DNA from: Lysobacteraceae bacterium
GTDB taxonomy: Bacteria > Pseudomonadota > Gammaproteobacteria > Xanthomonadales > Xanthomonadaceae
Direction of reading: 5' to 3'
Assembly: GCA_003241895.1 (NCBI GenBank)
Contig: QBLY01000021.1
Location: 1 to 47,794, forward strand
DNA: 47,794 nucleotides
The number at the start of each line of letters is the position of its first letter. Within the stretch, counting starts at the first letter, position 1. Shown piece after piece: positions 28,023-47,794 of this stretch. The notes under the pieces are model-generated. The model worked only from the letters and a program-made list of their open reading frames with translations, was not told the origin of the DNA and did no database searches. The position numbers and the translations under genes were made by a program.

Positions 28023-30716
28023 ATGTCTGAAGTCACCGTAGCTTCGCTGGCCAAAGTGCTGGGTATGCCCTCCGAGAAGCTGCTCGTTCAGCTGGCCGGT
28101 GCCGGCATGACCTTCAGCGGGCCGGATCAGGTGGTCAGCAGCACCGAGAAGATGAAGCTGCTCGGCTTCCTTCGCCGTACCCACGGCAAGGACGACCAGC
28201 CGGCGGAAGCCACGGTGCCCAAGAAGATCACGCTGCAGCGCCGCAAGCAGGAAGAGCTGACCGTCAGCGCCGGCAAGACCAAGTCCACGGTCACCGTCGA
28301 AGTGCGCCAGAAGCGCACCTACGTCAAGCGCGACGACGCCGATGCGCCGGTGGTGACCGACGAGCGCCAGGACGCCCTGCGCAAGCTCGAGGAATCCAGG
28401 GCCAAGAACGACGCCGAGCTGGCCGCGCTGAGCGAGTCCGATCGCAAGCGCAAGATCGAGCGCGACGCGGCCGAACTGGCCCGCATCGAAGCGCTGAAGC
28501 CGCCGGTGGTGGTGGCGCCCGTGGAAGAGATGGTCGAGGTGATCGAGCAGGTGCCGGCGCCGGCTCGCCCGCGCATCCAGGAAGTCGAGCGCGCAGCGCC
28601 CGGCGCCATCGTCATCCACGAGCCGCGCAAGGCCCGCATGGAGCCCAAGGCGCCCGAGCGCAAGCCCGGCCCGATGGCGCGCCCGACCCCGGGTGGCCCG
28701 AACCGTCCGCCCGCCGCCGGCGCCAACAAGGTGCCGCCGAAGAAGAACACGGTGCGCGGCTCGAATTCGATGGTGGACAACGAGGGTGAAGAGGGCCAGG
28801 CGCAGCGTTTCGCCGCCGGCCAGCTGCACCTGACCGAGTCCGAGCGGGCCCGCCGCGGCGCCGCCGGGAATCGCAAGAAGCCCAAGATGCGCGGTCCCGA
28901 GCCGTCCCGTACGGCCAGCGGCCAGCACGGGTTCTCGCGCCCGACCGCGCCGATCGTGCGCGACGTCTACATCGGTGAGTCCATCACCGTCGCCGACCTG
29001 GCCGTCAAGCTGGCCATGAAGGGCGGCGAAGTAGTGCGGTCACTGTTCAAGATGGGCGTCATGGCGACCATCAACCAGCTGATCGACCACGACACCGCCG
29101 TGCTGGTGGTGGAAGAACTTGGCCACCGCGCCAGCAAGGCCAGCGACGACGACGATGCCGAGATCGCCTTGGTTGCACACCAGGACGTGGTGCAGGGCGA
29201 GCGCACGACGCGGCCGCCGGTGGTCACCATCATGGGCCACGTCGACCACGGCAAGACCTCGCTGCTCGACTACATCCGCCGCACCAAGGTGGCCACCGGC
29301 GAAGCCGGCGGCATCACCCAGCACATCGGCGCCTACCATGTCGAAACCGAAAAGGGCGTCATCAGCTTCCTCGACACCCCGGGCCATTCGGCGTTCTCCG
29401 CCATGCGTGCCCGCGGCGCCAAGCTCACCGACATCGTGGTGCTGGTGGTCGCGGCCGACGACGGCGTGATGCCGCAGACCATCGAAGCGGTGAACCACGC
29501 GCGCGCCGCCAAGGTGCCGCTGCTGATCGCGGTCAACAAGATGGACAAGCCCGAAGCCAACCCCGACAACGTAAAGCAGGGCCTGGTGAAGCTTGAAGTG
29601 GTGCCCGAAGAGTGGGGCGGCGACGTGCAGTTCGTGCCGATCTCGGCCAAGACCGGCATGGGCGTGGACGCCCTGCTGGAGGCGATCGCGATCCAGGCCG
29701 AGGTGATGGAGCTCACCGCCGTGTACGACGCCCGCGCCACCGGCGTGGTGATCGAATCGGCGCTCGACAAGGGCCGCGGCCCGGTCGCCACCGTGCTGGT
29801 GCAGCAGGGCACGCTCAAGAAGAGCGACTACCTGGTGTGCGGCGTGCACTACGGTCGCGTCCGCGCCCTGTTCGACGAGAACGGCAAGCAGGTGGACCAG
29901 GCCCAGCCGTCGATCCCGGTGCAGGTGCTCGGCCTTTCCGGCGTGCCCGATGCCGGCGACGATTTCGTGGTCGTGGCCGACGAGCGGTTGGCCAAGGAAG
30001 TGGCCCAGCAGCGCGACATCAAGCGCCGCGAGTCGCGCCTGGTCACCACCGCCGGTTCGCGCATGGAAGACATCATGGCGTCCATGGGCCAGAACCTCGG
30101 CCAGGCCAACCTCAACCTGCTGGTGAAGGCCGACGTCCAGGGCTCCGTCGAGGCGCTGCGCCAGTCGCTGGTGGCGCTGTCGAACGACCTGATCAAGATC
30201 AACGTCATCAGCTCCGGCGTGGGCGGCATCACCGAATCCGACGCCACGCTGGCGGCCACGTCCAAGGCCGTCATTATCGGCTTCAACGTGCGCGCCGACG
30301 CCAGCGCCCGCCGCATCATCGAGACCAATGGCCTCGACCTGCGCTACTTCTCGATCATCTACGACGTCATCGACCAGGTGAAGCAGGTCGCTTCTGGCCT
30401 GCTGGGCGTGGAGATCCGAGAGGAAATCCTCGGCATCGCCGAAGTGCGCGACGTGTTCCGCAGCTCCAAGTTCGGTGCGGTCGCCGGTTCGCTGGTCACC
30501 GAGGGCACGGTCAAGAAGTCCAAGCCCATCCGCGTGCTGCGCAATTCTGTGGTGGTGTTCGAGGGCGAACTGGAGTCGCTGCGTCGCTTCAAGGACAACG
30601 TCGAGGAAGTCCGCAGCGGCGTCGAGTGCGGTATCGCCGTGAAGGCCTACAACGACGTGCAGCCGGGCGACCAGATCGAGTGCTTCGAGCGCATCGAGGT
30701 CCAGCGCACGCTGTAA
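28023..30716 (+). CDS. infB: Translation initiation factor IF-2
   Basis: IF-2 is the GTPase that places fMet-tRNA on the 30S subunit and drives subunit joining. The N-terminal IF2 module is at 1-50, followed by a charged linker (about 60-300). The G domain has G1 GHVDHGKT (405-412), G2 GGITQHIG, G3 DTPGH, G4 NKMD and G5 SAK. Domains II and III, and the fMet-binding C-terminal domain ([18 protein letters not shown]), complete it. The length is 897 residues. An in-frame internal start for a shorter isoform, as in E. coli, was not resolved. It cooperates with the initiator tRNA encoded upstream. Confidence 0.98.
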
Positions 30717-30731
30717 GGCGAGGGCAAACCC

Positions 30732-31094
30732 ATGGCTACCAGAAGTTTCCATCGCACCGACCGCGTCTCGGCCCAGCTGCGGCGCGACATCGGCCTGATC
30801 GTGCACCAGGCGGTGCGCGAATACGGCCTGCCTTCGGTCAGCGTGTCGGACGTCGAGGTCACCCGCGACCTCGCGCACGCCAAGGTGTTCGTCACCGCGC
30901 TGTTGGCCGAACAGGGCCCGGCGGCGGTGAAGGCGCTCAAGGAAATCGCGCCCGAGCTGCGCTACCGGCTGGGCCAGGCGGTGCGCATGCGCCACGTGCC
31001 CGAGATCCACTTCCACTACGACGACTCGGTCGACAAGGGCGAGCGCATCGACCAACTGCTGCGCGACAACCCGCCCAGCGAATCCACCGACTGA
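30732..31094 (+). CDS. rbfA: 30S ribosome-binding factor RbfA
   Basis: RbfA is a KH-like cold-shock protein that binds the immature 30S subunit and helps 16S rRNA 5' processing. The 120 residues contain [38 protein letters not shown] and the C-terminal [21 protein letters not shown]. It is 15 bases after infB with GGCGAGGG as a likely ribosome binding site. Confidence 0.97.
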
Positions 31095-31108
31095 GCCACG
31101 GCCTGCCC

Positions 31109-32119
31109 GTGGCCAAGACCTTCTTCCGGCCGCTCGACGGCATCGTGCTGCTCGACAAACCCGCCGGCTACAGCTCCAACCAGGCCCTGCAGGACGTGCG
31201 GCGGCTGTTCCGCGCGGAGAAGGGCGGCCACACTGGCGCGCTTGATCCGCTCGCCACCGGCCTGCTGCCGCTGTGCCTGGGCGAAACCACCAAGATCGCC
31301 GGCCTGCTGCTCGGTGGCCGCAAGGCCTACCAGGCGCGCGTACGACTGGGCACCACCACCGACACCGATGATTCCGACGGCGTGGTGCTGCGCGAGCGCG
31401 CCGTGCCTGCGCTGGATCGGGCGACGGTCGAGGCGGCGCTGCGCCCCTTCGTTGGCCGCATCCGCCAGCGTCCGCCGATCTATTCGGCGCTCAAGCAGGG
31501 CGGCGAGCCGCTGTACACCAAGGCGCGCCGCGGCGAAGCCATCGACGTGCCCGAGCGCGAGGTCGAGGTGGAGGCCATTGAACTGCTCGAGCTCGATGGC
31601 GACCAGCTGAGCCTGGTGGTGACCTGCGGCTCGGGCACCTACATCCGCAGCCTGGCCCGGGACCTGGGCGAGGCGCTGAGCTGCGGCGGCCACATCACGG
31701 CGCTGCGCCGGACCTGGGTTGAGCCGTTCCGTGAGGCGCGCGCCTACACCTTGGGCGAACTGCAGACGGTTGCCGAGACCCAGGGCGAGGCGGCGCTGGA
31801 AGCCCTGCTGCTGCCGGTGGAGGCGGGGCTGGCCCATTGGCCGACGGTGGTGGTGGACGCGGAGCAGGCGCGGCGCCTGGGGATGGGGCAGCGGGTTGAG
31901 GTGGGCGAAGCGGGCCTGGAGTCCCTCCCGCGGGGGGTTGCCAGCGTTGTCGGCCCCTCCGGGCCCGTCCTCACGACCCCCGCGGCCCTTGGTTCAGGCC
32001 CGACGGTCCTGGCCGTGAACCTGCTGGACGCCACCGGCCGATCCCTCGGCCTGGGCGAACTCTCGGACGACGGCAAACTCCGGGCCAAACGCCTGTTCCG
32101 CTGGGCGGCGGCCGGCTGA
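31109..32119 (+). CDS. truB: tRNA pseudouridine(55) synthase TruB
   Basis: TruB makes pseudouridine 55 in the T-loop of nearly all elongator tRNAs. [19 protein letters not shown] starts the fold, and the catalytic Asp is D46 in [38 protein letters not shown] and [15 protein letters not shown] follow. The GTG at 31109 is the first plausible start after rbfA (14 bases). The length is 336 residues. Near the C-terminus, about residues 268-297 (bases 31910-32000) form a Pro/Gly/Ser-rich stretch that does not look like the usual PUA-like domain and is encoded by an inverted repeat. The domain resumes at [14 protein letters not shown]. Confidence 0.96.
31928..31985 (+). repeat. Inverted repeat inside the 3' part of truB
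   Basis: CCGCGGGGG at 31928-31936 is a perfect complement of CCCCCGCGG at 31977-31985, with a smaller GGCCC/GGGCC hairpin between. It coincides with the low-complexity segment of TruB and may be a small inserted palindromic element. Confidence 0.4.
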
Positions 32120-32143
32120 ATCGCGCCCGCTGCGCTGCGTGCC

Positions 32144-32172
32144 TTGTCCGGACAGACCCGGGCAGCTATAAT
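32144..32172 (+). promoter_or_regulatory. Promoter of rpsO
   Basis: TTGTCC (32144-32149), a 17-base spacer and a perfect TATAAT (32167-32172). Transcription would start near 32179 and leave a leader of about 95 bases before rpsO. In E. coli the rpsO leader folds into a pseudoknot for S15 autoregulation; whether this one does cannot be seen by eye. Confidence 0.78.
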
Positions 32173-32273
32173 TTTGCGGCTTTCACAAGCACATCCCAAC
32201 CGGCGAGCCACGCGGTGCGGCGTCAATAATGGCGACGTTCCTGCAGGCTGCGCATCACACAGAAGAGAACATC

Positions 32274-32534
32274 ATGTCCGTCGATTCCGCCAAGATCATC
32301 GAAGAGTTCAAGCGCGTCCCCAACGACACCGGTTCCCCGGAAGTCCAGGTGGCCCTGCTCTCCGCCCGCATCGACCACCTCACCGACCACTTCAAGGCCC
32401 ACAAGCAGGACCACCATTCCCGCCGCGGCCTCCTGAAGATGGTCAACCAGCGCCGCAGCCTGCTTGGCTACCTCAAGAAGAAGGATTCCAAGCGCTACCA
32501 GACCCTGATCGAGCGTCTGGGCCTGCGCCGCTAA
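32274..32534 (+). CDS. rpsO: 30S ribosomal protein S15
   Basis: S15 binds the central domain of 16S rRNA early in 30S assembly and bridges to the 50S subunit. The 86-residue sequence has the full signature: [35 protein letters not shown] and [17 protein letters not shown]. The ATG at 32274 gives the family N-terminus ([13 protein letters not shown]); an in-frame ATG at 32229 would add 15 unconserved residues. AGAAGAGAA precedes the start. pnp follows, as in most bacteria. Confidence 0.97.
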
Positions 32535-32545
32535 GACAAGTAAAC

Positions 32546-32573
32546 CAACGCGGCGCAGAAATGCGCCGCGTTG
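32546..32573 (+). terminator. Stem-loop downstream of rpsO (terminator or RNase III site)
   Basis: A perfect 12-pair stem, CAACGCGGCGCA (32546-32557) with TGCGCCGCGTTG (32562-32573), is capped by a GAAA tetraloop and followed by CATTTGG. The T-run is weak, so partial termination with read-through to pnp is likely. In E. coli this region is cut by RNase III. Confidence 0.65.
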
Positions 32574-32580
32574 CATTTGG

Positions 32581-32624
32581 GGCCCCGGTACCTGCCGGGG
32601 CCAAACCGCCGGGCAGGGTGCCCG
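32581..32624 (+). promoter_or_regulatory. Two further hairpins in the pnp leader
   Basis: GGCCCCGG (32581-32588) pairs with CCGGGGCC (32595-32602), and CGGGCA (32610-32615) pairs with TGCCCG (32619-32624). With the stem before them they make three hairpins in 80 bases, ending about 30 bases before the pnp GTG. In E. coli the pnp leader is double-stranded and serves PNPase autocontrol; a similar role is inferred. Confidence 0.5.
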
Positions 32625-32656
32625 CCGGATCGAATCCGAAGACGAGGAATTAAATC

Positions 32657-34756
<2,100 letters not shown>

Positions 34757-37672: not shown

Positions 37673-39070
37673 TTAAACCCAGCCGGTGGCGTAGTAGACG
37701 CCGATGATCACGAACACCGCCAGCGTCTTGATGATGGTGATGGCGAAGATGTCCTTGTAGGACTGGCGGTGCGTCAGTCCCGTCACCGCCAGCAGGGTGA
37801 TCACCGCGCCGTTGTGCGGCAGCGTATCCATGCCGCCGCTGGCCATCGACGCCACCCGGTGCAGCACTTCCATCGGGATGTTGGCGGCGTTGGCATTGGC
37901 GATGAAGGTGTCGGCCATCGCCGCCAGCGCGATCGACATGCCGCCCGACGCCGAGCCGGTGATGCCGGCCAGCGCGGTCACGGTTACCGCTTCGTTGATC
38001 AGCGGGTCGGGGATCGCGCCCAGCGCGTTGGCCACGATCAGGAAGCCGGGCAGGGCGGCGATGACGGCGCCGAATCCGTACTCGGACGCGGTGTTCATGG
38101 CCGCCAGCAGCGCGCCGCCGATCGCCGGCTTGGTGCTTTCGGCGAAGTGCGTGCTGACGGTGCGCCACGCGAGCAACAGCACCGCCAGGATGCCCACCAG
38201 CAGCGCGGCCTCGACCGCCCAGATGGCGGCGATCTTCGATATTTCCTGCACCACCGGCGCCGGGCTGCCGACCACCGAGGGCACGAACGAATGGCTGTCG
38301 CCGTAGGCCTGCGGGATCAGCACGGTGAACACCTTGTTCGACACGCCCACCAGCACCAGCGGCAGCAGCGCCACCCAGGCGTTGGCGAGGCGGTCGCCGG
38401 CGAAGGGTGCGGGCTCGTTGAGCAGCTCGGTGCCGTAGCCTTCGCCCGCGGTGCGCGCGACGCGCCGGCGCCACTCCAGGTAGCTCAGGCCCAGCGCCAG
38501 GATGAAGATGCCGCCGATGGTGCCCAGCACCGGCGCCGCCCAGGTGTCGGTGCCGAAGAACGAGGCCGGGATGATGTTCTGGATCTGCGGGGTGCCCGGC
38601 AGCGCATCCATGGTGAAGGTGAAGGCGCCCAGGGCGATGGTGCCGGGGATCAGGCGCTTGGGGATGTCGCTCTGGCGGAACAGTTCGGCCGCGAACGGAT
38701 ACACCGCGAACACCACCACGAACAGCGACACGCCGCCGTAGGTCAGCACCGCGCACACGGCCACGATCGACAGCATGGCGCGATCGGGCCCGAACAGCCG
38801 GATGACCGCCGCCACGATGGACTTGGAGAAGCCCGACACCTCGATGAGCTTGCCGAAGATCGCGCCCAGCAGGAACACCGGGAAGTACAGCTTCAGGAAC
38901 CCGACCATCTTGTCCATGAACAGGCCGGTGAACATCGGCGCCACCAGGGTGGGGTCGGTCAGCAGCACCGCGCCCATCGCCGCCACCGGTGCGAACAGGA
39001 TGACGCTGTAGCCGCGGTAGGCCACCAGCATCAGGAACACCAACGCACCAAGCACGATCAGGAAGGACAT
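37673..39070 (-). CDS. GntP-family permease
   Basis: A 465-residue inner-membrane symporter with about 12-14 helices. The family signature is visible in YGGVSLFVVVFAVYPFAAEL, FTMDALPGTPQIQNIIP, and MNTASEYGFGAVIAALPGF. GntP proteins move small carboxylates such as gluconate, and in some species D-3-hydroxybutyrate. The ATG at 39070 is preceded by ACGAAGGC; the frame is open further upstream into the receptor gene but without conserved sequence. It diverges from the TonB receptor across a 156-base promoter region. Given the neighbouring PHB-degrading enzymes, 3-hydroxybutyrate is a plausible substrate (inference). Confidence 0.9.
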   Translation of the reverse strand: MSFLIVLGALVFLMLVAYRGYSVILFAPVAAMGAVLLTDPTLVAPMFTGLFMDKMVGFLKLYFPVFLLGAIFGKLIEVSGFSKSIVAAVIRLFGPDRAMLSIVAVCAVLTYGGVSLFVVVFAVYPFAAELFRQSDIPKRLIPGTIALGAFTFTMDALPGTPQIQNIIPASFFGTDTWAAPVLGTIGGIFILALGLSYLEWRRRVARTAGEGYGTELLNEPAPFAGDRLANAWVALLPLVLVGVSNKVFTVLIPQAYGDSHSFVPSVVGSPAPVVQEISKIAAIWAVEAALLVGILAVLLLAWRTVSTHFAESTKPAIGGALLAAMNTASEYGFGAVIAALPGFLIVANALGAIPDPLINEAVTVTALAGITGSASGGMSIALAAMADTFIANANAANIPMEVLHRVASMASGGMDTLPHNGAVITLLAVTGLTHRQSYKDIFAITIIKTLAVFVIIGVYYATGWV

Positions 39071-39129
39071 GCCTTCGTTTCCCCGGGGAATACAGGCAGG
39101 CAGTGTCCGCAGCCCCGGGCCTTCGGGCC

Positions 39130-39149
39130 ACCTGTACCAAGGTACAGGT
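39130..39149. promoter_or_regulatory. Perfect 20-base inverted repeat, probable operator in the divergent promoter
   Basis: ACCTGTACC and GGTACAGGT are exact complements separated by AA. It sits between the start of the GntP permease (39070) and the receptor (39227). A possible receptor -10, CATAAT (39170-39175), places the repeat over the -35 region, as expected for a repressor or an activator docking there. The size fits a dimeric GntR, LacI or TetR-type regulator; the regulator gene is not in the window. Confidence 0.6.
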
Positions 39150-39169
39150 ACCCGCGGTAAGCCCACCGT

Positions 39170-39175
39170 CATAAT
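39170..39175 (+). promoter_or_regulatory. Possible -10 element of the TonB receptor
   Basis: CATAAT, 51 bases before the ATG. The -35 position is occupied by the inverted repeat and is not close to TTGACA, which suits a regulated promoter. Confidence 0.35.
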
Positions 39176-39226
39176 CTGCGTGGCAAGCGGCCATCCGGCC
39201 ATCCACACGCGTCGCAAGGGGACCAC

Positions 39227-41434
39227 ATGAAGCGCAACCACCTAAGCCTGGCCATCGGCCTCACCCTCTCCCTGGCCGCCGTGCAGGTGCACGCCCAGGA
39301 TGCCGCCGCGCCCTCCGAGGATGGCTCCGAGGCCGTGACGCTCGACGCCGTGCAGGTTACCGCCCGAAAGCGCGAAGAGACCCTGCAGGAGGTCCCGGTC
39401 GCCGTGACGGCGTTCACCGCCGAAACGCTCGACAAGCTCAACATCCGCGACATCAGCGACCTTGACGCCCAGGTGCCCAACCTCACCATTTACGCTGCGC
39501 GCGGCTCCAGCAGCACCGTGACCGCCTACATCCGCGGCGTCGGCCAGTCCGATCCGCTCTGGGGCGTTGATCCGGGCGTGGGCATCTACCTGGACGACGT
39601 CTATATCGCCCGCCCGCAGGGTGCGCTGCTGGACGTGTTCGACGTTGAGCGCATCGAAGTGCTGCGCGGCCCGCAGGGCACGCTGTACGGCAAGAACACC
39701 GTTGGCGGCGCCATCAAGTACATCTCGCGCGGCCTGCCGACTGAAACCGCAGGCAACGCCTCCGTGACGGTCGGCAACTACGGCCAGATGGACGTGAAGG
39801 CGGCCATCGGTGGCTCGCTCGACGAGCGTGACACGCTGCGCGGTCGCATCGCCGTGGCCAGCCTCAGCCGCGACGGCTTCGGCGAGAACACCATCACCAG
39901 GCAGGACGTCAGCGACAAGGAAATTCTGGCCTTGCGCGGCCAGCTCGGCGCGTACGTCACCGACGACGTGAACTTCCAGTTCGCCTTCGACTGGATGGAA
40001 GACCAGTCCGGCGTGCGCGGCGCCCAGATGCTTGCGCCCAACCGCTTCACGCCGCTCTACCCGCCGCTGGACAGCCGCTACGACGTCCGCAACGGCATGC
40101 CCAACATCAACGACACCACCCTCAAGGGCGTTTCGGCCACCGCCAACTGGCGCGTCAACGACAGCTGGGCGCTGAAGTTCGTTACCGCCAAGCGCGAGTC
40201 CAACACCGAAACCAACATCGACTTCGACACCACCCCGCAGACCATCGCGGACGTGAAGGCCTTCTACCGCGACCAGCAGGTCAGCAACGAGCTGCAGCTC
40301 AACTTCGACGGCGGCGACCGCCACCGCGGCGTGTTCGGCCTGTACAAGTTCAATGGCGAAGCCGGCGGCCAGGTCCGCAACAACTTCTTCGGCTTCCTGT
40401 TCGGTGATACGCAGGGAACCGTGTATACCGACAGCGTCGCGGTTTACGGCGACTGGAGCTTCGACATCACCGACCAGTTCAACCTGGACGTTGGCCTGCG
40501 TTACACCGACGAGGACAAGCGTGCCGACGTACTCAACCGCGGCTACACCAACGGCACCTACACGGTGCCCACCAACACCGTTGCCGACTTCGACAAGACC
40601 ATCAACTTCACCAACCTCGCGCCCAAGGTTTCGCTGGGCTACCAGCTCAACGACGACATCCTGATCTACGGCCTGGCCACCCGCGGCTTCAAGTCGGGCG
40701 GCTACAACATCCGTGCCCAGGCCACGGCAGTGCCGCGCTCGGCCGAGCCGTTCGACGACGAGGTGGTGGACAGCTTCGAAGCCGGCGCCAAGATGTCGTT
40801 CCTCGACCAGCGCCTGTTCCTGAACGTTTCGGCCTTCCACAACAAGTACGAGGACATCCAGCTGTCGGTGTTCACGTCCTTCGACAGCGACGGCAACGGT
40901 TCGCTCGATTCCTTCTTCGGTGACTTCACCAACGCCGGCTCGGGCACCGTGAACGGGCTGGAGATCGAGTACCAGTGGCTGCCGACCCGCAACTGGCTGA
41001 TCAGCGGCAACTTCGCATTCCTGGACGCCAAGTACGACGAATTCATCTACCGGGGCGAGAATATCGCCGACGAGCAGGAGTTCACCAACGCCCCCGAGTT
41101 CTCGGGCGCCATCAACGTCGAGTACCGCACCGACCTGGCCAATGGCGGCAACCTCTCCGCCCGCGTCGGCTACAGCTACCAGGACGACGTGGTGGCCACG
41201 ACCGAAATCGTTCGTACCGGCGCGCGGCCGATCACGCAGGATGCCTATGGCCTGCTCAACGCCGGCGTCATCTGGAACACCGGCGGCGCCTGGTCGTTCT
41301 CGCTGCAGGGCTCCAACCTCGCCGACGAGGAATACCGCACCACCGGCTACAACATCAGCGCGGCGCTGGGCGTCCTGACCGGCTTCTACGGTGCGCCGCG
41401 CCAGTACAGCCTGACGGCGCGCTACGAGTTCTGA
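39227..41434 (+). CDS. TonB-dependent outer-membrane receptor
   Basis: A 735-residue gated beta-barrel. A signal peptide (residues 1-24, cleavage after VHA) is followed by a TonB-box region (LDAVQVTARKREE) and the plug (about 50-165, with VAVTAFTAETLDKLNI, and ERIEVLRGPQGTLYGKNTVG). The 22-strand barrel ends in the terminal Phe (SLTARYEF). The substrate is not readable from sequence; siderophore, sugar and polymer receptors share this form. It overlaps the PHB depolymerase gene (TGATG) and diverges from the GntP permease, suggesting uptake of ester oligomers rather than iron (inference). Confidence 0.95.
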   Translation: MKRNHLSLAIGLTLSLAAVQVHAQDAAAPSEDGSEAVTLDAVQVTARKREETLQEVPVAVTAFTAETLDKLNIRDISDLDAQVPNLTIYAARGSSSTVTAYIRGVGQSDPLWGVDPGVGIYLDDVYIARPQGALLDVFDVERIEVLRGPQGTLYGKNTVGGAIKYISRGLPTETAGNASVTVGNYGQMDVKAAIGGSLDERDTLRGRIAVASLSRDGFGENTITRQDVSDKEILALRGQLGAYVTDDVNFQFAFDWMEDQSGVRGAQMLAPNRFTPLYPPLDSRYDVRNGMPNINDTTLKGVSATANWRVNDSWALKFVTAKRESNTETNIDFDTTPQTIADVKAFYRDQQVSNELQLNFDGGDRHRGVFGLYKFNGEAGGQVRNNFFGFLFGDTQGTVYTDSVAVYGDWSFDITDQFNLDVGLRYTDEDKRADVLNRGYTNGTYTVPTNTVADFDKTINFTNLAPKVSLGYQLNDDILIYGLATRGFKSGGYNIRAQATAVPRSAEPFDDEVVDSFEAGAKMSFLDQRLFLNVSAFHNKYEDIQLSVFTSFDSDGNGSLDSFFGDFTNAGSGTVNGLEIEYQWLPTRNWLISGNFAFLDAKYDEFIYRGENIADEQEFTNAPEFSGAINVEYRTDLANGGNLSARVGYSYQDDVVATTEIVRTGARPITQDAYGLLNAGVIWNTGGAWSFSLQGSNLADEEYRTTGYNISAALGVLTGFYGAPRQYSLTARYEF

Positions 41435-42501
41435 TGGCCAGAGTTCCCCGGGAACTTTCCCAACGGGCCGCGCAAGCGGCCCGTGTTTTTATCCCCGCCG
41501 CCCTGGCGCTGGCGCTGCTGGCCTGTGCCGGCGATGTGCCACCGCCGCTGCCGCGGATCGAGGTCGATCCCGACCGGGTCGCCGTGGCCGGGCTGTCGTC
41601 GGGCGCCTACATGGCCACCCAGGCGCACTTCGCCTGGTCGGACCGGCTGCGTGGCGCGGCCCTGATTGCCGGCGGACCTTATGGCTGCGCGGGCGGCTCG
41701 CTCGATATCGCGTTGGGCCTGTGCATGACCGGCGCACCGGATGCGTCGCGCTTGGCCGGCAAGCTCCGGCAGCGCGCCGCCAGCGGCGCCTTGGCGCCGC
41801 TGGCGGGCCTGGCCGGGGACCGCGTGTACGTGCTGCACGGTAAAGACGACGCCACGGTTTCCGAGCCGGTGAGCCGGGCCGGCGAGTCAGTCTATGCGGC
41901 GCTTGCGGACGGGGTCGGCGGCATCGCCCTGCGTTGGGACGGTGGCCGTGACTTCGGGCATGTGATGCCGACCACGGACGTGGGCGTGGACTGCCGAGTG
42001 GGTGGCAGCCCCTATCTGGGCGCCTGCGGCTTCGATGCGGCCGGCGAAGCCATGGCCTGGCTGTTCGGCGACCCATCCGGGGCGGCGAACGCGGCTACCG
42101 GCGAACTGCTCGCCTTCGACCAGGATGCCCTGCTGTCCGACGGCGAGGACGCACAGTTGGCCGACCGCGGCTGGCTTTACCTGCCCACGGCGTGCCGCGA
42201 CGGCAAGGCCTGCGGCGTGCTGGTGGTCTTCCACGGTTGCCAGCAGAACGCCGACGCCATCGGTGATGTCTTCGCGCGCGACGCAGGGTTCAACCGCTGG
42301 GCCGACGTACACCAGGTGGCCGTGCTGTATCCTCAAACGCGATCAAGCTATCTGCCGTTGAATCCAAAAGCATGCTGGGACTGGTGGGGCTATTCGGGAC
42401 CGGACTACGACACCCGGCGCGGCGTGCAGCAGCGCTGGCTGGCCGCGGCCATGGCCGCCCTGGGCGCGCCGCTGGACGGGCCCGCCGCCGCAGTGAACTG
42501 A
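41434..42501 (+). CDS. PHB depolymerase-like lipoprotein, permuted (type II) catalytic domain
   Basis: A 355-residue esterase of the polyhydroxybutyrate depolymerase family. The lipobox LLAC puts the lipidated Cys at C31. The lipase box GLSSGAYM has the nucleophile S55; the acid is probably D138 or D139 (LHGKDDATV) and the base H176 (DFGHVMP). The oxyanion segment VFHGCQQNADAIGD comes after these, at 265-278. That order (Ser, Asp, His, oxyanion His) is the type II, circularly permuted domain known from Comamonas, Acidovorax and Penicillium PHB depolymerases. No substrate-binding domain follows, so it probably cuts amorphous polymer or oligomers at the cell surface or in the periplasm. The ATG lies in the TGATG overlap with the receptor. 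An intrinsic terminator falls in codons 10-19. Confidence 0.87.
   Translation: MARVPRELSQRAAQAARVFIPAALALALLACAGDVPPPLPRIEVDPDRVAVAGLSSGAYMATQAHFAWSDRLRGAALIAGGPYGCAGGSLDIALGLCMTGAPDASRLAGKLRQRAASGALAPLAGLAGDRVYVLHGKDDATVSEPVSRAGESVYAALADGVGGIALRWDGGRDFGHVMPTTDVGVDCRVGGSPYLGACGFDAAGEAMAWLFGDPSGAANAATGELLAFDQDALLSDGEDAQLADRGWLYLPTACRDGKACGVLVVFHGCQQNADAIGDVFARDAGFNRWADVHQVAVLYPQTRSSYLPLNPKACWDWWGYSGPDYDTRRGVQQRWLAAAMAALGAPLDGPAAAVN
41463..41490 (+). terminator. Intrinsic terminator within the depolymerase signal-peptide codons
   Basis: ACGGGCCGC (41463-41471), a GCAA tetraloop and GCGGCCCGT (41476-41484), followed by GTTTTTAT. It is 28 bases after the receptor stop, where a receptor terminator is expected, yet inside the next reading frame. 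A second palindrome, AGTTCCC/GGGAACT (41442-41456), lies just before it. Confidence 0.72.
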
Positions 42502-42517
42502 GCAGGGGCCGGTCCAC

Positions 42518-45500
42518 GTGCTGACCGACGCGCTGGTCATTGGCGCGGGCCTGCTTTGGCTGGGCATGCTGTTCGGCACCGCGCTGTGGGCGGAACGACG
42601 GCCGACGCTGCTGGCGCGTCAGTGGCCGGTGGTTTACAGCCTGTCGCTGGCGGTCTACTGCACGTCGTGGACCTTCTACGGCACGGTCACCCAGGCGCAG
42701 CGTTCGGGCTGGCCCATACCGCCGACCTTCATCGGCACCATCCTTCTTTACGTGCTGGGCTTCGGCTTCCTGCTCAAGCTGCTGCGGCTGGCGCGCGAGC
42801 AGAACGCCACCTCGCTGGCCGACCTGGTGGCAACGCGCCTGGGCAAGAACTCCTGGCTGGCGGCGGTGGTGACCTTCGTCGCGGTGATCGGCATCGTTCC
42901 CTACATCGCGCTGCAGCTCAAGGCGGTGGCCATGAGCTACGGCCTGCTCACGCGCGCCTCCGAAGCGTCGCCGCCGGCGTGGCAGGACAGCGCGCTTTAC
43001 GTGGCGCTGGCGATGGCGCTGTTCGCGATGCTGTTCGGCACGCGGCGCGCTTCGGCGGCCGAACACAACCGCGGCCTGGTGCTGGCGATGGCGGTGGAAT
43101 CGCTGCTCAAGCTGGGCGCGATGCTGGCGTTGGGCGCGTTCGTCTGGTTGGGCCTGGACCTGCCGGACGTGCCGCGGGTGCCGCCGCCGCCCGACGGGGC
43201 TTCGGGCTTCCCGGCGCTGGTGCTGTTGGGCGCGCTGGCGATGTTCACGCTGCCCCACCAGTTCCACGTTGGCATCGTGGAGTGCCGCGACGAATCCCAC
43301 CTGCGCACCGCGCGCTGGCTGTTCCCGCTTTACATGCTGCTGATCGCACTGCCGATCCTGCCGCTGGCGCGCGCCGGTGACGCGCTGTTGGCGCCGATGG
43401 GCGTGCCGTCCGACCTGTACGTGCTGGCGCTGCCGCTGGCGCAGGGGCACGAGGCGCTGGCTCTGCTGGCTTTCCTGGGTGGCCTGAGCGCCGCCACCGG
43501 CATGGTGATCCTTTCCACGCTGGCGCTCAGCGTGATGATCGGCAACCACTGGCTGGCCCCGCTGCTGGTGCGCGGGCCCTGGGCCACGCGCGGCGGCAGG
43601 GCCGCCGACCTGCGCGGCGCCGTGCTGCTGCAGCGACGCGTCGGCATCCTGGCGGTGGTGCTGCTGGCCTGGCTTTACAGTCGTGCCATCGCCGGCAGCG
43701 ATGCGCTGGCCGACATCGGCGCGCTGTCGTTCTCGGGGCTGGCGACGCTGGCACCCGCGGTCGGATTCGCGGTGTGGCGCCCGCAGACGCCGGCACGCGC
43801 GGTGTTGGTGGGCGTCCTGGCGGCCGCGGCGGTGTGGGCGTGGGTGCTGCTGGTGCCCGCACTGGCCGAAGCCAGTGGCTACAGCGGCGCCTGGCTTACG
43901 CGCGGACCCTTCGCGCTGGCCTGGCTGTCGCCCGACGGCATGCTGGGCCTGGCCGAATGGAGCCGGCTGGGCCGCGCCACGGCGTTGAGCCTGGCCACCG
44001 GCGCGCTGGTGACGTGGCTGCTGGCCTTGCAGCTGGACGTGTCTCCTGATCGCGGCGACGGCGCCACGCTGTCGGCCCGCGGCCTGCGCGAAGTCGCCGC
44101 GCGTTTCCTTTCGCGCCAGAAGGTGGACGAAGTGCTGGCCGACGCACCCGCCGAGGGCGCGGTGTCCGCCGAGCTGCAGCAGCGCGTGGAGCGCGAGCTG
44201 GCTGCGGTGCTGGGCGCCGCGTCGTCGCGGTTGCTGCTGGACGCCGCGCGGCGCGAACAGGGCCGCGACCTCGACACCGTGGCCACCATCGTCGGCGAAG
44301 CCTCGCAGGCGCTGCGCTTCAACCAGCGCGTTCTCGAGGCGGCGCTGGAGAACATGACCCAGGGCATCAGCGTGGTGGACGCCGAGCTGCGCCTGGTGGC
44401 CTGGAATCGGCGCTACGCCGAACTTTTCGACTACCCGCCGTCACTGCTGCAGGTGGGCATGCCGGTGGCGCGGCTGGTCGAGCACAACCTGCATCGCGGT
44501 CACCCCGGCGCGGGCCGGATGGACAGCGAGGTAGCGAAGCGCCTGCAGCACATGCGCGCCGGCACGCCCTACGTCGCCGAGCGGCGCTTCGGAGACATGG
44601 TGGTGGAAATCCGCGGCAGCCCGATGCCCGGCGGCGGCTTCGTGGCCACGTTCACCGACGTCACCGACTTCCGGCGTAGCGAGTCCGAGCTCAAGGTGGT
44701 GGCTGAAACGCTGGAACAGCGGGTGGCGGATCGCACCGCCGAACTGGCCGGCGCCAAGGCCGAGGCCGAACGCGCCAACCGCGCCAAGACCCGCTTCCTG
44801 GCGGCGGTGAGCCATGACTTGGCGCAGCCGCTCAACGCGGCGCACCTGTTCGTGCACGCGCTGTCGCCGCAGCTGTCGCTGACGCCACACCGCGAAGCCT
44901 TGGCCAATATCGATGGCGCCCTGGGGTCGGCCGAATCGCTGCTGTCGGGGCTGCTGGATATTTCGCGGCTGGATGCGGGCGGCATGGAGCCCAAGCGGCA
45001 GGTGCTGCGCATCAACGACCTGCTGCAGCCGCTGGTCGCCGAGTTCCGTGTGCTGGCCGCGCAAAAGGGCCTGCCGCTGGACTGCATCCCGAGTTCAGCC
45101 TGGGTGGTCACCGACCCGCAGCTGCTGCGCCGCGTGCTGCAGAATTTCCTGGGCAATGCCGTGCGCTACACGGCGCGCGGACGCATCCTGGTGGGCTGCC
45201 GTCGCCGCGGCGATGTCCTGGCCATCGAGGTGTGGGACACCGGCCTGGGCATCGAACAGGCCGACCAGATCGTGATCTTCGAGGAGTTCCGGCGGCTCGA
45301 CAGCGGCGGACAGGGCCTGGGCCTGGGGCTGGCGATCGCCGAGCGCGTGTCACGCCTGCTCGGGCATCCGCTGCGGCTGCGGTCGTGGCCCGGGCGCGGC
45401 ACGGTGTTCGCCATCGAGGTGCCGCGCGCCGCGCCGGCGCCGGCCGTGGCCACGGTGCCCGAGCCCAGTGCCCCCGAGCCGCCGCGCAGCCGCGTGCTGG

Positions 45501-45853
45501 TGGTGGACAACGACCCCGCCGTGCTGCGCGGCATGCAGGCCCTGCTGACGGGCTGGCAGTGCGAAGTGCTGGCCGCGCGCGACGCCGACGAAGCCCTGCG
45601 TCTGGTGGCGCTTGGCACGCCCGACCTGCTGCTGCTGGACTACCACCTCGACGGTGGCCAGACCGGCCTGGGACTGCGCGAACGCCTGGCCGCTGCGATG
45701 CCGCCGCGGCCCTGCGTGATCATCACCGCCGACCATTCGACCGAAGTGCGCGACGCCGCGGCGGCCGCGGGCTGCACCTTGCTGCACAAGCCGCTGAAGC
45801 CGCTTGCGCTGAAGTCCGTGATGGCCCGTCTGCTCGCCGCCCAGCCTCGCTAG
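42518..45853 (+). CDS. Hybrid sensor histidine kinase with sodium/solute symporter domain (CrbS/MxtR-like)
   Basis: An 1111-residue inner-membrane sensor. Residues about 1-510 form a 12-13 helix SSS (PutP-like) domain (VYCTSWTFYGTV, then FGFLLKLLRLAREQNATSLA). A PAS domain follows at about 600-710 (LENMTQGISVVDAELRLVAW) and a short coiled coil. The HisKA domain carries H766 (AAVSHDLAQPLN), and the ATPase domain has N880 (LQNFLGNAVRYT), DTGLGIE and GQGLGLGLAI. The C-terminal receiver has the phosphoacceptor D1041 (LLLLDYHLD). This architecture is that of CrbS (Vibrio) and MxtR (Pseudomonas), which control acetate/C2 metabolism with a separate LuxR-type regulator. No such regulator is in the window. 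The start GTG is 16 bases after the depolymerase stop. Confidence 0.94.
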   Translation: MLTDALVIGAGLLWLGMLFGTALWAERRPTLLARQWPVVYSLSLAVYCTSWTFYGTVTQAQRSGWPIPPTFIGTILLYVLGFGFLLKLLRLAREQNATSLADLVATRLGKNSWLAAVVTFVAVIGIVPYIALQLKAVAMSYGLLTRASEASPPAWQDSALYVALAMALFAMLFGTRRASAAEHNRGLVLAMAVESLLKLGAMLALGAFVWLGLDLPDVPRVPPPPDGASGFPALVLLGALAMFTLPHQFHVGIVECRDESHLRTARWLFPLYMLLIALPILPLARAGDALLAPMGVPSDLYVLALPLAQGHEALALLAFLGGLSAATGMVILSTLALSVMIGNHWLAPLLVRGPWATRGGRAADLRGAVLLQRRVGILAVVLLAWLYSRAIAGSDALADIGALSFSGLATLAPAVGFAVWRPQTPARAVLVGVLAAAAVWAWVLLVPALAEASGYSGAWLTRGPFALAWLSPDGMLGLAEWSRLGRATALSLATGALVTWLLALQLDVSPDRGDGATLSARGLREVAARFLSRQKVDEVLADAPAEGAVSAELQQRVERELAAVLGAASSRLLLDAARREQGRDLDTVATIVGEASQALRFNQRVLEAALENMTQGISVVDAELRLVAWNRRYAELFDYPPSLLQVGMPVARLVEHNLHRGHPGAGRMDSEVAKRLQHMRAGTPYVAERRFGDMVVEIRGSPMPGGGFVATFTDVTDFRRSESELKVVAETLEQRVADRTAELAGAKAEAERANRAKTRFLAAVSHDLAQPLNAAHLFVHALSPQLSLTPHREALANIDGALGSAESLLSGLLDISRLDAGGMEPKRQVLRINDLLQPLVAEFRVLAAQKGLPLDCIPSSAWVVTDPQLLRRVLQNFLGNAVRYTARGRILVGCRRRGDVLAIEVWDTGLGIEQADQIVIFEEFRRLDSGGQGLGLGLAIAERVSRLLGHPLRLRSWPGRGTVFAIEVPRAAPAPAVATVPEPSAPEPPRSRVLVVDNDPAVLRGMQALLTGWQCEVLAARDADEALRLVALGTPDLLLLDYHLDGGQTGLGLRERLAAAMPPRPCVIITADHSTEVRDAAAAAGCTLLHKPLKPLALKSVMARLLAAQPR

Positions 45854-45860
45854 GAAGATC

Positions 45861-47657
45861 TCAGGGCAGGGTGCCGAGGTTGTCCGCAGTGAGCGGCGCG
45901 AGTGCGCCGTTGGCGAAAACGCGCGGCGTGGTGCGTATGCGCGCGTCGCCCGGCAGCGGTGCGCCTTCGGCTACGTGATTCCAGACCGCATCCAGGGCGC
46001 GGTAGCCGTAGGGCATCATCGGCACGTAGCGCATGCCCAGCGCGGGCAGGCCCAGGAAAGCGTCGAAGTGCTGCGCGTTTTCCACCGCCCAGTAGCTCAC
46101 GGGGCGGCCATTCGCCTTGGCCCACGGCGCGTAGGCGCCACCGCTGAAGGCTTCGGGTATGAGGCCGTCGTCCACGCCGTGCACCACGATCACCGGCAGG
46201 CCCGCGCGCGGCAGCCCTGCGGTGGTGGCGGCGACGCTGGCGCGCACCGGTCCTGCCCGGTCGTCCCACAGCGCGTGCAGGCAGCGCAGGCCGGGCAGGT
46301 GCGGGTCGCTGCCGGCAGCCATCGTGTCCACGATGCCCACGCCGGCACCGGGCGCAATGCCGCTGCCGTCGCTCCACCAGGCGCTGCGTTCGGCGGCGGT
46401 GGTTGCGCGCGGTGAACCGTCGGGCGCCAGCGCCGCGAAGCGATAGCCGCAGGGCATGTCGCCCGGGCCGGTTCGCGCGTAGGCAGAGGCGTAGGTCACG
46501 TTGACCGCGCGCCACAGGTCGAAGGCCGTGCTGATGGACCCGGCCGCCAGCGAGGCGTCGGTCCAGCCTTGTGCGTTCAATTTGCGGTGCGCCTCTTCGG
46601 CCTGCGCCTGCGGCTCGGAAGCGGCGATGTCGCCGTCGGCATGCAGCGAGGCGCAGCGGGCCACGCCCGCCGGGTTCTTCGTGCCACCCGGCCGCGCCAG
46701 CAGCACGCCGTCGAAGGCCGACGCATTGAGCGCGCAGCCCATCCACAGCGCGGCCTCGGTGGTGTAGTCGTACAGCGCGCGGCCGCCGGTGGCCGGCAGC
46801 ACGTTCGGAGACACCGCCACGGCGGCGTCAAGCCAGTCGCCCGGCAGCTCTGCAGCGCGCAGCACGGCGCCACCGCCGTTGGACACGCCCACGGCGATCA
46901 CGCGCGTGCTGGCAGAGGTCCACGGTGCGCCCTGCGGCCTGGCCTGCTTGAGCACCTGCAGCGCGAACTGCGCGGCCTGCTGCATGTGCCGGCCCCAGTC
47001 GGCTTCGGGGTTGTCGCCCGAGTGCGCGTGCTTGAACGCGATCGGCGCCACGCCCGACGACGGCCCAGCGCTGGCGCTGAACTCCACCGTCGCACCGGCC
47101 TGGGCGCGGCGGCCGTCCAGGCCGATGCCCACGCCGTCGGTGGTGTCCACGTAGCCGGTGCCGGTGCCCTTGTCGGTGTAGGCCACCGCGCAGCCGCGCG
47201 GCAGGCCCCAGGCGCCGGCGAGGGCGATGGAACCGTAGATGCCTCGCGATCCCGACGAGGCGGTTACGATCACGCAGCGCTTGGCCAGGTCGAAGTCGTC
47301 GGGCAGCTGCACCAGCACGCGGTGCGGCTGGCGGCGGCCGGGCAGGGTGGCGAAGGCGGTGTATTCGCGCCCCGGCACCGGCGCCAGGGTGCCGTAGACG
47401 CTGGCGTAGCCACCGCCGGGCGCCAGGTCGGCGATGCCGCGCCAGTTGGTCCAGAACGCCCGGCGCCGCAGTTCCTGGGCGGTGGGTTGGTCGGGGTTGG
47501 CGAAGGGCGGTGGCGTCGCGCTGCGCAGCCCGGCTTCACCCAGCCCGGCGGTCAGCAAATCGTCCGCTCCGGTGTGGTCGGTGATTGCGATGCCGGTGAT
47601 CGCCGGGGCGATTTCCGCGCTGCGTGAGTCCACGCCCGCGCAGCCGGCGATGGCCAT
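45861..47657 (-). CDS. D-(-)-3-hydroxybutyrate oligomer hydrolase, lipoprotein-like (N-terminus uncertain)
   Basis: A member of the 3HB-oligomer hydrolase family, which releases 3-hydroxybutyrate monomers from soluble PHB oligomers. The family blocks are SSGSRGIYGSIALAGAWGL, GCAVAYTDKGTGTGY, and the active-site GVSNGGGA (S259). Likely partners are the Asp in VHGVDDGLIP and the His in ENAQHFDAF. The first Met (47657) begins MAIAGC, but the in-frame codons upstream read KKCIALCALSSA, which with MAIAGC form a lipoprotein signal peptide. No ATG, GTG or TTG precedes it in frame up to the window edge (47794). The true start may use another codon, lie beyond the window, or be hidden by an indel. It converges with the kinase gene (7-base gap). 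Confidence 0.88.
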   Translation of the reverse strand: MAIAGCAGVDSRSAEIAPAITGIAITDHTGADDLLTAGLGEAGLRSATPPPFANPDQPTAQELRRRAFWTNWRGIADLAPGGGYASVYGTLAPVPGREYTAFATLPGRRQPHRVLVQLPDDFDLAKRCVIVTASSGSRGIYGSIALAGAWGLPRGCAVAYTDKGTGTGYVDTTDGVGIGLDGRRAQAGATVEFSASAGPSSGVAPIAFKHAHSGDNPEADWGRHMQQAAQFALQVLKQARPQGAPWTSASTRVIAVGVSNGGGAVLRAAELPGDWLDAAVAVSPNVLPATGGRALYDYTTEAALWMGCALNASAFDGVLLARPGGTKNPAGVARCASLHADGDIAASEPQAQAEEAHRKLNAQGWTDASLAAGSISTAFDLWRAVNVTYASAYARTGPGDMPCGYRFAALAPDGSPRATTAAERSAWWSDGSGIAPGAGVGIVDTMAAGSDPHLPGLRCLHALWDDRAGPVRASVAATTAGLPRAGLPVIVVHGVDDGLIPEAFSGGAYAPWAKANGRPVSYWAVENAQHFDAFLGLPALGMRYVPMMPYGYRALDAVWNHVAEGAPLPGDARIRTTPRVFANGALAPLTADNLGTLP

Positions 47658-47794
47658 GGCCGACGACAGCGCACAAAGCGCGATGCACTTTTTCCTTGGC
47701 CGGACGGGCTTGGCTGCCGCAGGCGGCGGAGCGGCGCCGGCAGGGCGGGTGCGGCGGTCCCAGGCGGGCTGGGGGCGTTCGGGCGTCTCGGGGG

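Follow-up and report, generated by a model that had tools for sequence, protein, structure and literature searches.

The locus analysed here lies at one end of contig QBLY01000021.1 from a Lysobacteraceae bacterium and holds genes that point to the use of poly(3-hydroxybutyrate) (PHB) and of 3-hydroxybutyrate (3HB) oligomers. The whole stretch of DNA analysed, 47,794 bases with the contig end at position 47794, is called the window below, and the genome it comes from (G000, 99.65% complete) the window genome. Five genes had been named in a first-pass annotation; all are present as open reading frames at the coordinates given in Table 1, and curated family models name four of them, the permease being placed by its relatives. 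The permease gene diverges from that of a TonB-dependent receptor (TBDR), with a divergent promoter of 156 bases between them. The TBDR stop codon and the depolymerase start codon overlap by one base (TGATG), the hybrid kinase gene follows the depolymerase gene after 16 bases, and the oligomer hydrolase gene converges on it. Divergence, overlap, spacing and convergence are all as they had been described.

The contig boundary falls inside the locus: the window stops before a 3HB dehydrogenase and a regulator gene. A start at 47657 had been given for the oligomer hydrolase, but this was a mechanical pick that had to be abandoned, as the frame is still open at the contig end. The hydrolase start (MTQTP, known from the related locus L010) was found on another contig of the window genome, C38, which is 5718 bases long (L094) and on which the 3HB dehydrogenase gene begins 152 bases from the end. 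The ends of the window and of C38 have 31 bases in common with one mismatch; an exact-match test gave 0. In relatives, the next genes after the hydrolase encode a 3HB dehydrogenase and a response regulator of LuxR type. Read across the boundary, the order is a leftward permease, a rightward receptor, depolymerase and kinase, a leftward oligomer hydrolase and then a rightward 3HB dehydrogenase, oxidoreductase and regulator. The same order recurs in dozens of genomes, which rules out a chance arrangement. When compared with 3HB-dehydrogenase models, the L010 dehydrogenase scored over the cut-off of one (276 vs. 258) and under those of two others (284 vs. 307 and 229 vs. 340). A CoA-transferase pair is also present in the window genome.

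Table 1. Features of the locus in the window and on contig C38, with related features elsewhere in the window genome and in a distant relative.
Feature	Coordinates	Strand	Basis or remark
GntP-like inner-membrane permease	37673..39070	-	Annotated homologues, operon context, Pfam matches in relatives
Palindrome TGTACCAAGGTACA in divergent promoter	39133..39146	+	Recurrence across loci
TonB-dependent receptor with plug	39227..41434	+	PF07715, PF00593, linkage, tree; signal peptide spotted by eye
Type 2 short-chain PHA depolymerase lipoprotein	41434..42501	+	NF050059, PF10503, PDB 2d80; lipobox LLAC
Transporter-domain hybrid histidine kinase, CrbS/MxtR type	42518..45853	+	PAS-HisKA-HATPase-receiver; NF041832
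3HB-oligomer hydrolase	45861..47794	-	PF10605; lipobox IAGC; 5' end cut by contig end
3HB dehydrogenase	C38:4760-5566		88% identical to L010 copy
FAD oxidoreductase	C38:3373-4581		PF01266; between 3HB dehydrogenase and regulator
LuxR-type response regulator, CrbR/ErdR-like	C38:2671-3330		
Further transporter-domain hybrid kinase, window genome	C11:50497-53877 (L175)		LuxR-type regulator beside it
Further transporter-domain hybrid kinase, window genome	C44:81521-84904 (L174)		LuxR-type regulator beside it
PhaC beside depolymerase, genome G171	L132:14706-16400		
Depolymerase beside PhaC, genome G171	L132:13294-14292		

The neighbourhood is conserved in relatives, and the genes occur together in dozens of genomes, in line with what had been predicted. 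Among the best 80 of 88 depolymerase-centred loci fetched, with a TBDR called at a score of at least 100 bits, a related TBDR was present in 51, on the same strand in all of them. It lay within 250 bases of the depolymerase in 46 loci and within 1 kb in 50, and in the remaining locus, L018, a frameshift splits the match. This locus comes from Arenimonas daejeonensis, and both its receptor match and its permease match fall into two pieces in different frames, which may reflect sequencing error or decay. In 45 of the 51 linked loci the kinase lies no more than 700 bases away, and in 44 the permease no more than 4.5 kb, though several contigs end too early for a call; the oligomer hydrolase was found in 25, the regulator in 24 and the 3HB dehydrogenase in 18. 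The 29 loci without a related TBDR consist of one cut by a contig end (L053) and 28 from records whose titles name groups other than Lysobacterales. Arrangements vary with distance. In a Kangiellaceae metagenome-assembled genome (MAG; L054) and in Aliikangiella (L056) the kinase gene is found on the far side of the permease gene, with the hydrolase gene after the depolymerase gene, and among 15 loci of more distant families depolymerase and TBDR share one fragment in 13. Permease, TBDR, depolymerase and kinase all stand together in L140-L143. Another carrier adjoins the depolymerase or TBDR in two loci, an MFS transporter in L138 and a sodium:solute symporter in L130, and linkage of the 3HB dehydrogenase extends to lineages whose inner-membrane carrier is of another kind. 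A locus from a MAG titled Rhizobium sp. (L013) is Arenimonas-like, with 68-92% identity to the window proteins, so that the bin may be mislabelled or mixed.

A survey covered 398 genomes of the order. With thresholds of E <= 1e-30 for the depolymerase and E <= 1e-70 for the TBDR, hits were found in 109 and 242 genomes, respectively. The TBDR was hit in 107 of the 109 genomes with a depolymerase, vs. 135 of the 289 without (Fisher p 7e-26, uncorrected for relatedness). The most telling result is that the other genes stay when the depolymerase is missing: of 20 TBDR loci from 19 genomes without a depolymerase hit at this threshold, all had the permease, 19 the kinase, 15 the regulator and 14 the oligomer hydrolase. 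Another 20 loci, mostly with more distant TBDRs and including one genome (G176) with a depolymerase hit elsewhere, comprise 15 with a permease, 11 with a kinase, 4 with a hydrolase and 4 with a dehydrogenase; several of these contigs are short. Permease, sensor and oligomer hydrolase are thus the receptor's constant companions, and the depolymerase is dispensable. The TBDR tracks oligomer use, with the depolymerase as an optional front end.

This retention of partners bears on the possibility that the TBDR is no importer and instead anchors or displays the depolymerase or serves as a sensor at the cell surface, with oligomers and 3HB entering by porins. The overlapping or abutting genes, at the short distances given above for 46 of 51 loci, speak for this, and short oligomers are small. 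However, the TBDR persists in the 20 loci from genomes without a depolymerase hit, with the oligomer hydrolase nearby in 14, so anchoring a depolymerase cannot be its sole task. The domains also count against this reading: in the window protein Pfam matched only the plug (PF07715, 70 bits) and the barrel (PF00593, 135 bits), both over cut-off, and no extra N-terminal signalling domain. We consider an anchor or sensor unlikely. A receptor that keeps hydrolase, permease and sensor without the depolymerase fits an oligomer importer, and the TBDR is likely to take up 3HB oligomers.

Could the TBDR import another nutrient, such as an ester, a siderophore or haem, and be merely co-regulated with acetate or 3HB metabolism? 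The top-scoring NCBIfam TBDR models and many of the PDB hits are indeed siderophore or haem receptors, and four TBDR relatives were found outside the locus. However, all 24 NCBIfam scores were under cut-off, those of siderophore, haem, B12 and SusC models included; the siderophore receptor model TIGR01783, for example, gave 153 bits against a cut-off of 223.5. The question raised in the first-pass annotation, whether the receptor falls with siderophore or with glycan receptors, is answered in part: a tree was built from 112 sequences, and in it the 103 TBDRs from the loci and their relatives formed one group (support 0.998) apart from FhuA, FepA and BtuB of Escherichia coli and from six paralogues of the window genome, the outgroup being small and without any glycan receptor, so that other TBDRs may well fall inside the group. 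Paralogue frames were set by tblastn; seven loci were skipped before the trees were built, and further sequences dropped out because of their length or their stop codons. Furthermore, the same position beside the same partners is held by receptors of two types, one sharing 52-92% and the other about 32-37% identity with the window TBDR. Import of another nutrient is, in our judgement, very unlikely. The likeness to SusC/SusD systems that had been suggested stands as functional logic only: no SusD-family partner was present among the eight window proteins scanned, and the SusC/RagA model TIGR04056 scored 32.9 bits, far under its cut-off of 368. Outside the locus, at L160:8633-11798, a second receptor copy (52% identity) adjoins an alpha/beta hydrolase, perhaps forming a related ester uptake pair.

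Both hydrolases carry a lipobox and belong to families that they match over cut-off, as expected for the two lipoprotein hydrolases proposed earlier. The depolymerase scored 306.4 bits with NF050059 (cut-off 280) and 30 with PF10503 (cut-off 23), and the oligomer hydrolase 427 bits with PF10605 (cut-off 27), covering profile positions 5-664 of 688. Residues 40-337 of the 356 of the depolymerase align with the PHB depolymerase of PDB 2d80 (7e-41), over a span that includes GLSSG, GKDD and GHVMP. The active serine is aligned; 2d80 and 2d81 differ at that serine. The Asp of GKDD and the His of GHVMP are presumably the other catalytic residues. GxSxG is present in 96 of 97 depolymerase homologues; cruder patterns, which we did not use as evidence, found the Asp box in 61 and the His box in 67 of these 97, and the serine of the oligomer hydrolase in 34 of 43. 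A simple lipobox rule, applied without L053 and without matches that were weak or short at the N-terminus, picked out 50 of 69 TBDR-linked and 8 of 30 unlinked depolymerases, together with 36 of 45 linked and all 3 unlinked oligomer hydrolases.

These enzymes might work mainly on a short-chain polyester other than PHB, or on oligo-esters that other cells shed, PHB being a minor substrate. Loci lacking the depolymerase would live on oligomers set free by others, and Pfam and NCBIfam scans matched no separate substrate-binding domain in the depolymerase. Membership of NF050059 and PF10605, together with the linked 3HB dehydrogenase, nevertheless points to 3HB units, as does the long alignment with 2d80, and we regard a different main substrate as improbable. 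A 3HB substrate is supported by the linked dehydrogenase, by the lack of a phaC match and by permease homologues in 3HB/acetoacetate operons, and the earlier reading of the locus as one for polyester scavenging is, with adjustments, supported.

The first-pass annotation had also taken the lack of a nearby phaC as a sign of scavenging. Indeed no PhaC_N match was found in the window genome at all, but such absence is usual in the order and is not tied to the depolymerase: phaC occurs in 39 of the 398 genomes, 14 of the 109 with and 25 of the 289 without a depolymerase. A link between the depolymerase and the absence of phaC was looked for and not found (Fisher p 0.26). In two distant genomes, G171 and G200, phaC lies about 0.4 kb and 3.8 kb from the depolymerase, an observation showing that storage and scavenging genes can meet. 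That proximity, within about 4 kb, is what speaks for a locus that recycles the cell's own PHB. Such recycling is largely excluded and extremely improbable here, with no PhaC_N match in the window genome nor in 95 of the 109 depolymerase genomes and with lipoprotein export signals on both hydrolases.

The permease had been named GntP in the first-pass annotation. Among the best 15 plasmid homologues, 7 (69-76% identical) are annotated as GntP family permeases and 8 have no listed gene at that place. The window protein matched no Pfam model, and its relatives are split: of 29 aligned, with E values up to 1 allowed, 9 match PF02447 (GntP; best 4e-10) and 8 match PF03600 (CitMHS; best 7e-12). A profile search for solved structures returned no convincing relative. 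Among 103 matching plasmid records, one from Azospirillum lipoferum has the permease homologue in an operon with CoA-transferase A/B and a 3HB dehydrogenase, and one from Klebsiella has it adjoining a 3HB dehydrogenase. From this context the permease is likely to take up 3HB or acetoacetate.

In the hybrid kinase, PAS, kinase and receiver domains were matched, and residues 751-1106 scored 407 bits with NF041832 (cut-off 400). No Pfam transporter model matched the N-terminus. Its profile, however, hits PDB 10ed, a 'histidine kinase', at 1.2e-71, which bears out the earlier description as a transporter-domain hybrid kinase; an SLC5 fold is suggested by homology only. For the regulator (L010 copy) the best model was ErdR, with 206 bits, under the cut-off of 390. 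Three such kinases are encoded in the window genome, and a similar regulator gene lies close to each of them, that of the window being on the overlapping contig. The pair on C44 lies beside acs, and the acs promoter carries TAGACCAATGTCTA, which differs from the locus palindrome at 5 of 14 bases. Because of this position and motif, the acs-linked copy is probably CrbS/R proper and the window pair a paralogue that has a related operator to itself. We infer that the window kinase senses a small organic acid, which would include the C2/C4 sensing proposed at the outset.

The putative operator is the palindrome in the divergent promoter. Among 44 permease-receptor intergenic regions, TGTACYAAGGTACA was found with at most two mismatches in 40 and exactly in 23. 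Searched through the window genome at the same tolerance, the 14-mer occurs in two places only, the permease-TBDR and the hydrolase-3HB dehydrogenase promoters. Over 90 TBDR loci, the palindrome is upstream of the permease or TBDR in 59 and at the hydrolase, dehydrogenase or regulator in 14. An exact 16-mer, TGTACSAAGGTACAAG, had 96 sites in 93 of the 398 genomes searched, and its reversed form had 0 among the matches listed. The pattern was derived from the locus itself, so that matches there are expected; the window site does not match it, as its following bases differ. Of the 96 sites, 51 have a listed TBDR no more than 600 bases downstream (median 90) and 22 have a listed depolymerase 2-4.5 kb downstream, a distance equal to the length of a TBDR, which presumably lies between. 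For the other 23 sites, from 22 places, the surrounding sequence was retrieved, and each of them sits between permease and TBDR. No off-locus site was found among the 96. In G173 (C10:43852-43916) and G109 (C61:22723-22813; L178), paired palindromes occur on opposite strands of a single promoter region.

A matrix built from five published ACTU sites gave supporting evidence: the permease-TBDR promoter had a median best rank of 5.5, vs. 43 in random windows, and was in the top ten in 50 of 72 loci, vs. 223 of 1368 control windows. The palindrome is likely the operator of the linked two-component system, whose regulator is predicted to bind it. Upstream of the locus, at 28023-34756, the window holds a run of housekeeping genes for translation and RNA functions, which from their translations we take to be infB, rbfA, truB, rpsO and pnp.

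Taken together, the locus is probably a self-contained, TonB-driven system for the utilisation of PHB and its oligomers with its own CrbSR-type sensor. The lipoprotein depolymerase, probably located at the cell surface, would cut PHB to soluble 3HB oligomers, which the TBDR would bind and draw into the periplasm with energy from TonB. There the lipoprotein oligomer hydrolase would split them to 3HB, the GntP-like permease would move 3HB inward, and 3HB dehydrogenase and CoA-transferase would channel it to acetyl-CoA. The CrbS/R-type pair devoted to the locus would sense a small organic acid and switch both divergent promoters via the locus-specific palindrome.

Several observations weigh against this scheme or parts of it. 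The 28 depolymerase loci from records titled with other groups (Duganella, Denitromonas, Halomonas etc.) have no TBDR resembling that of the window in the fetched stretch, where only TBDRs similar to it were sought; the depolymerase can therefore do without a related TBDR. Two of the 109 genomes, G122 and G157, have a depolymerase but no TBDR hit. Conversely, the TBDR relatives L144, L160, L161 and L163 (42-52% identity) have no locus genes within 7-9 kb on either side, and L159 has none on its 6.9-kb contig. A lipobox was not found in 19 of the 69 TBDR-linked depolymerases, and short 3HB oligomers could enter by porins. As for the operator, a reversed-pattern control in the window genome gave 3+2 hits at up to two mismatches, so the palindrome is not rare within the genome; only the 59 of 90 TBDR loci carry it upstream of permease or TBDR, and distant families are without it. 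Its resemblance to ACTU is only moderate, and in several loci, the window included, the best matrix site in the promoter is not the palindrome. The likelihoods given for the alternative explanations are not mutually exclusive.

With a confidence that is fair, we propose a new class of TonB substrate, in which 3HB oligomers would be imported across the outer membrane by an energy-driven process under the control of a dedicated CrbSR-type sensor that has an operator of its own. The system would be widespread, both among Lysobacterales and among relatives of Kangiella type (L054, L056). It would exist as a degrader, which has the depolymerase, and as an oligomer feeder, which lacks it and lives on fragments made by others. 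That TonB-dependent uptake of polyester fragments would be a largely undescribed substrate class, as was first suggested, is in keeping with the literature search: no description of such uptake for PHB or 3HB oligomers was recognised among the matches listed from open-licence full texts, most subscription journals being outside this scope. Widespread as a storage polymer, PHB is also sold as a biodegradable plastic. If confirmed, the proposal would extend TonB-dependent uptake to polyesters, beyond the iron carriers, vitamins, sugars and handful of further compounds. The locus supplies a testable receptor, operator and sensor and a genomic marker for polyester scavengers, and its content separates degraders from fragment-feeders.

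SusC/SusD polysaccharide utilisation loci combine a TBDR, lipoprotein hydrolases, an inner-membrane carrier and a devoted regulator, and Blanvillain reportedly described TBDR-centred carbohydrate scavenging in Xanthomonas in 2007. The window locus brings together the same kinds of components as these systems, but its predicted substrate is a polyester, no SusD was found and the carrier is GntP-like. The PHB depolymerase of PDB 2d80 shares with the window enzyme the catalytic domain, the active serine and a CWDW motif, whereas the window enzyme is a lipoprotein coupled to a TBDR. The CrbS/CrbR (MxtR/ErdR) acetate system likewise pairs a transporter-domain hybrid kinase with a LuxR-type regulator; CrbR requires an ACTU motif, and the system has an operator whose core, ACYAANGT, is similar to that of the locus palindrome; unlike it, the window pair is a paralogue linked to a 3HB locus (PMC5715377). 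In other reports, TBDRs are listed in a model of rubber-fragment import (PMC5979037), and control of PHB storage is treated in a context unrelated to uptake (PMC12542648). Another report cites suggestions of TBDRs for chitin, cellulose oligomers and dioxin, and presents DdvT as a TBDR for a lignin-derived biphenyl (PMC6874591). As described there, DdvT resembles the proposed role of the window TBDR in handling a small organic carbon source that is neither an iron carrier nor a vitamin nor a sugar, and differs in that its substrate is aromatic and not a polyester fragment (PMC6874591).

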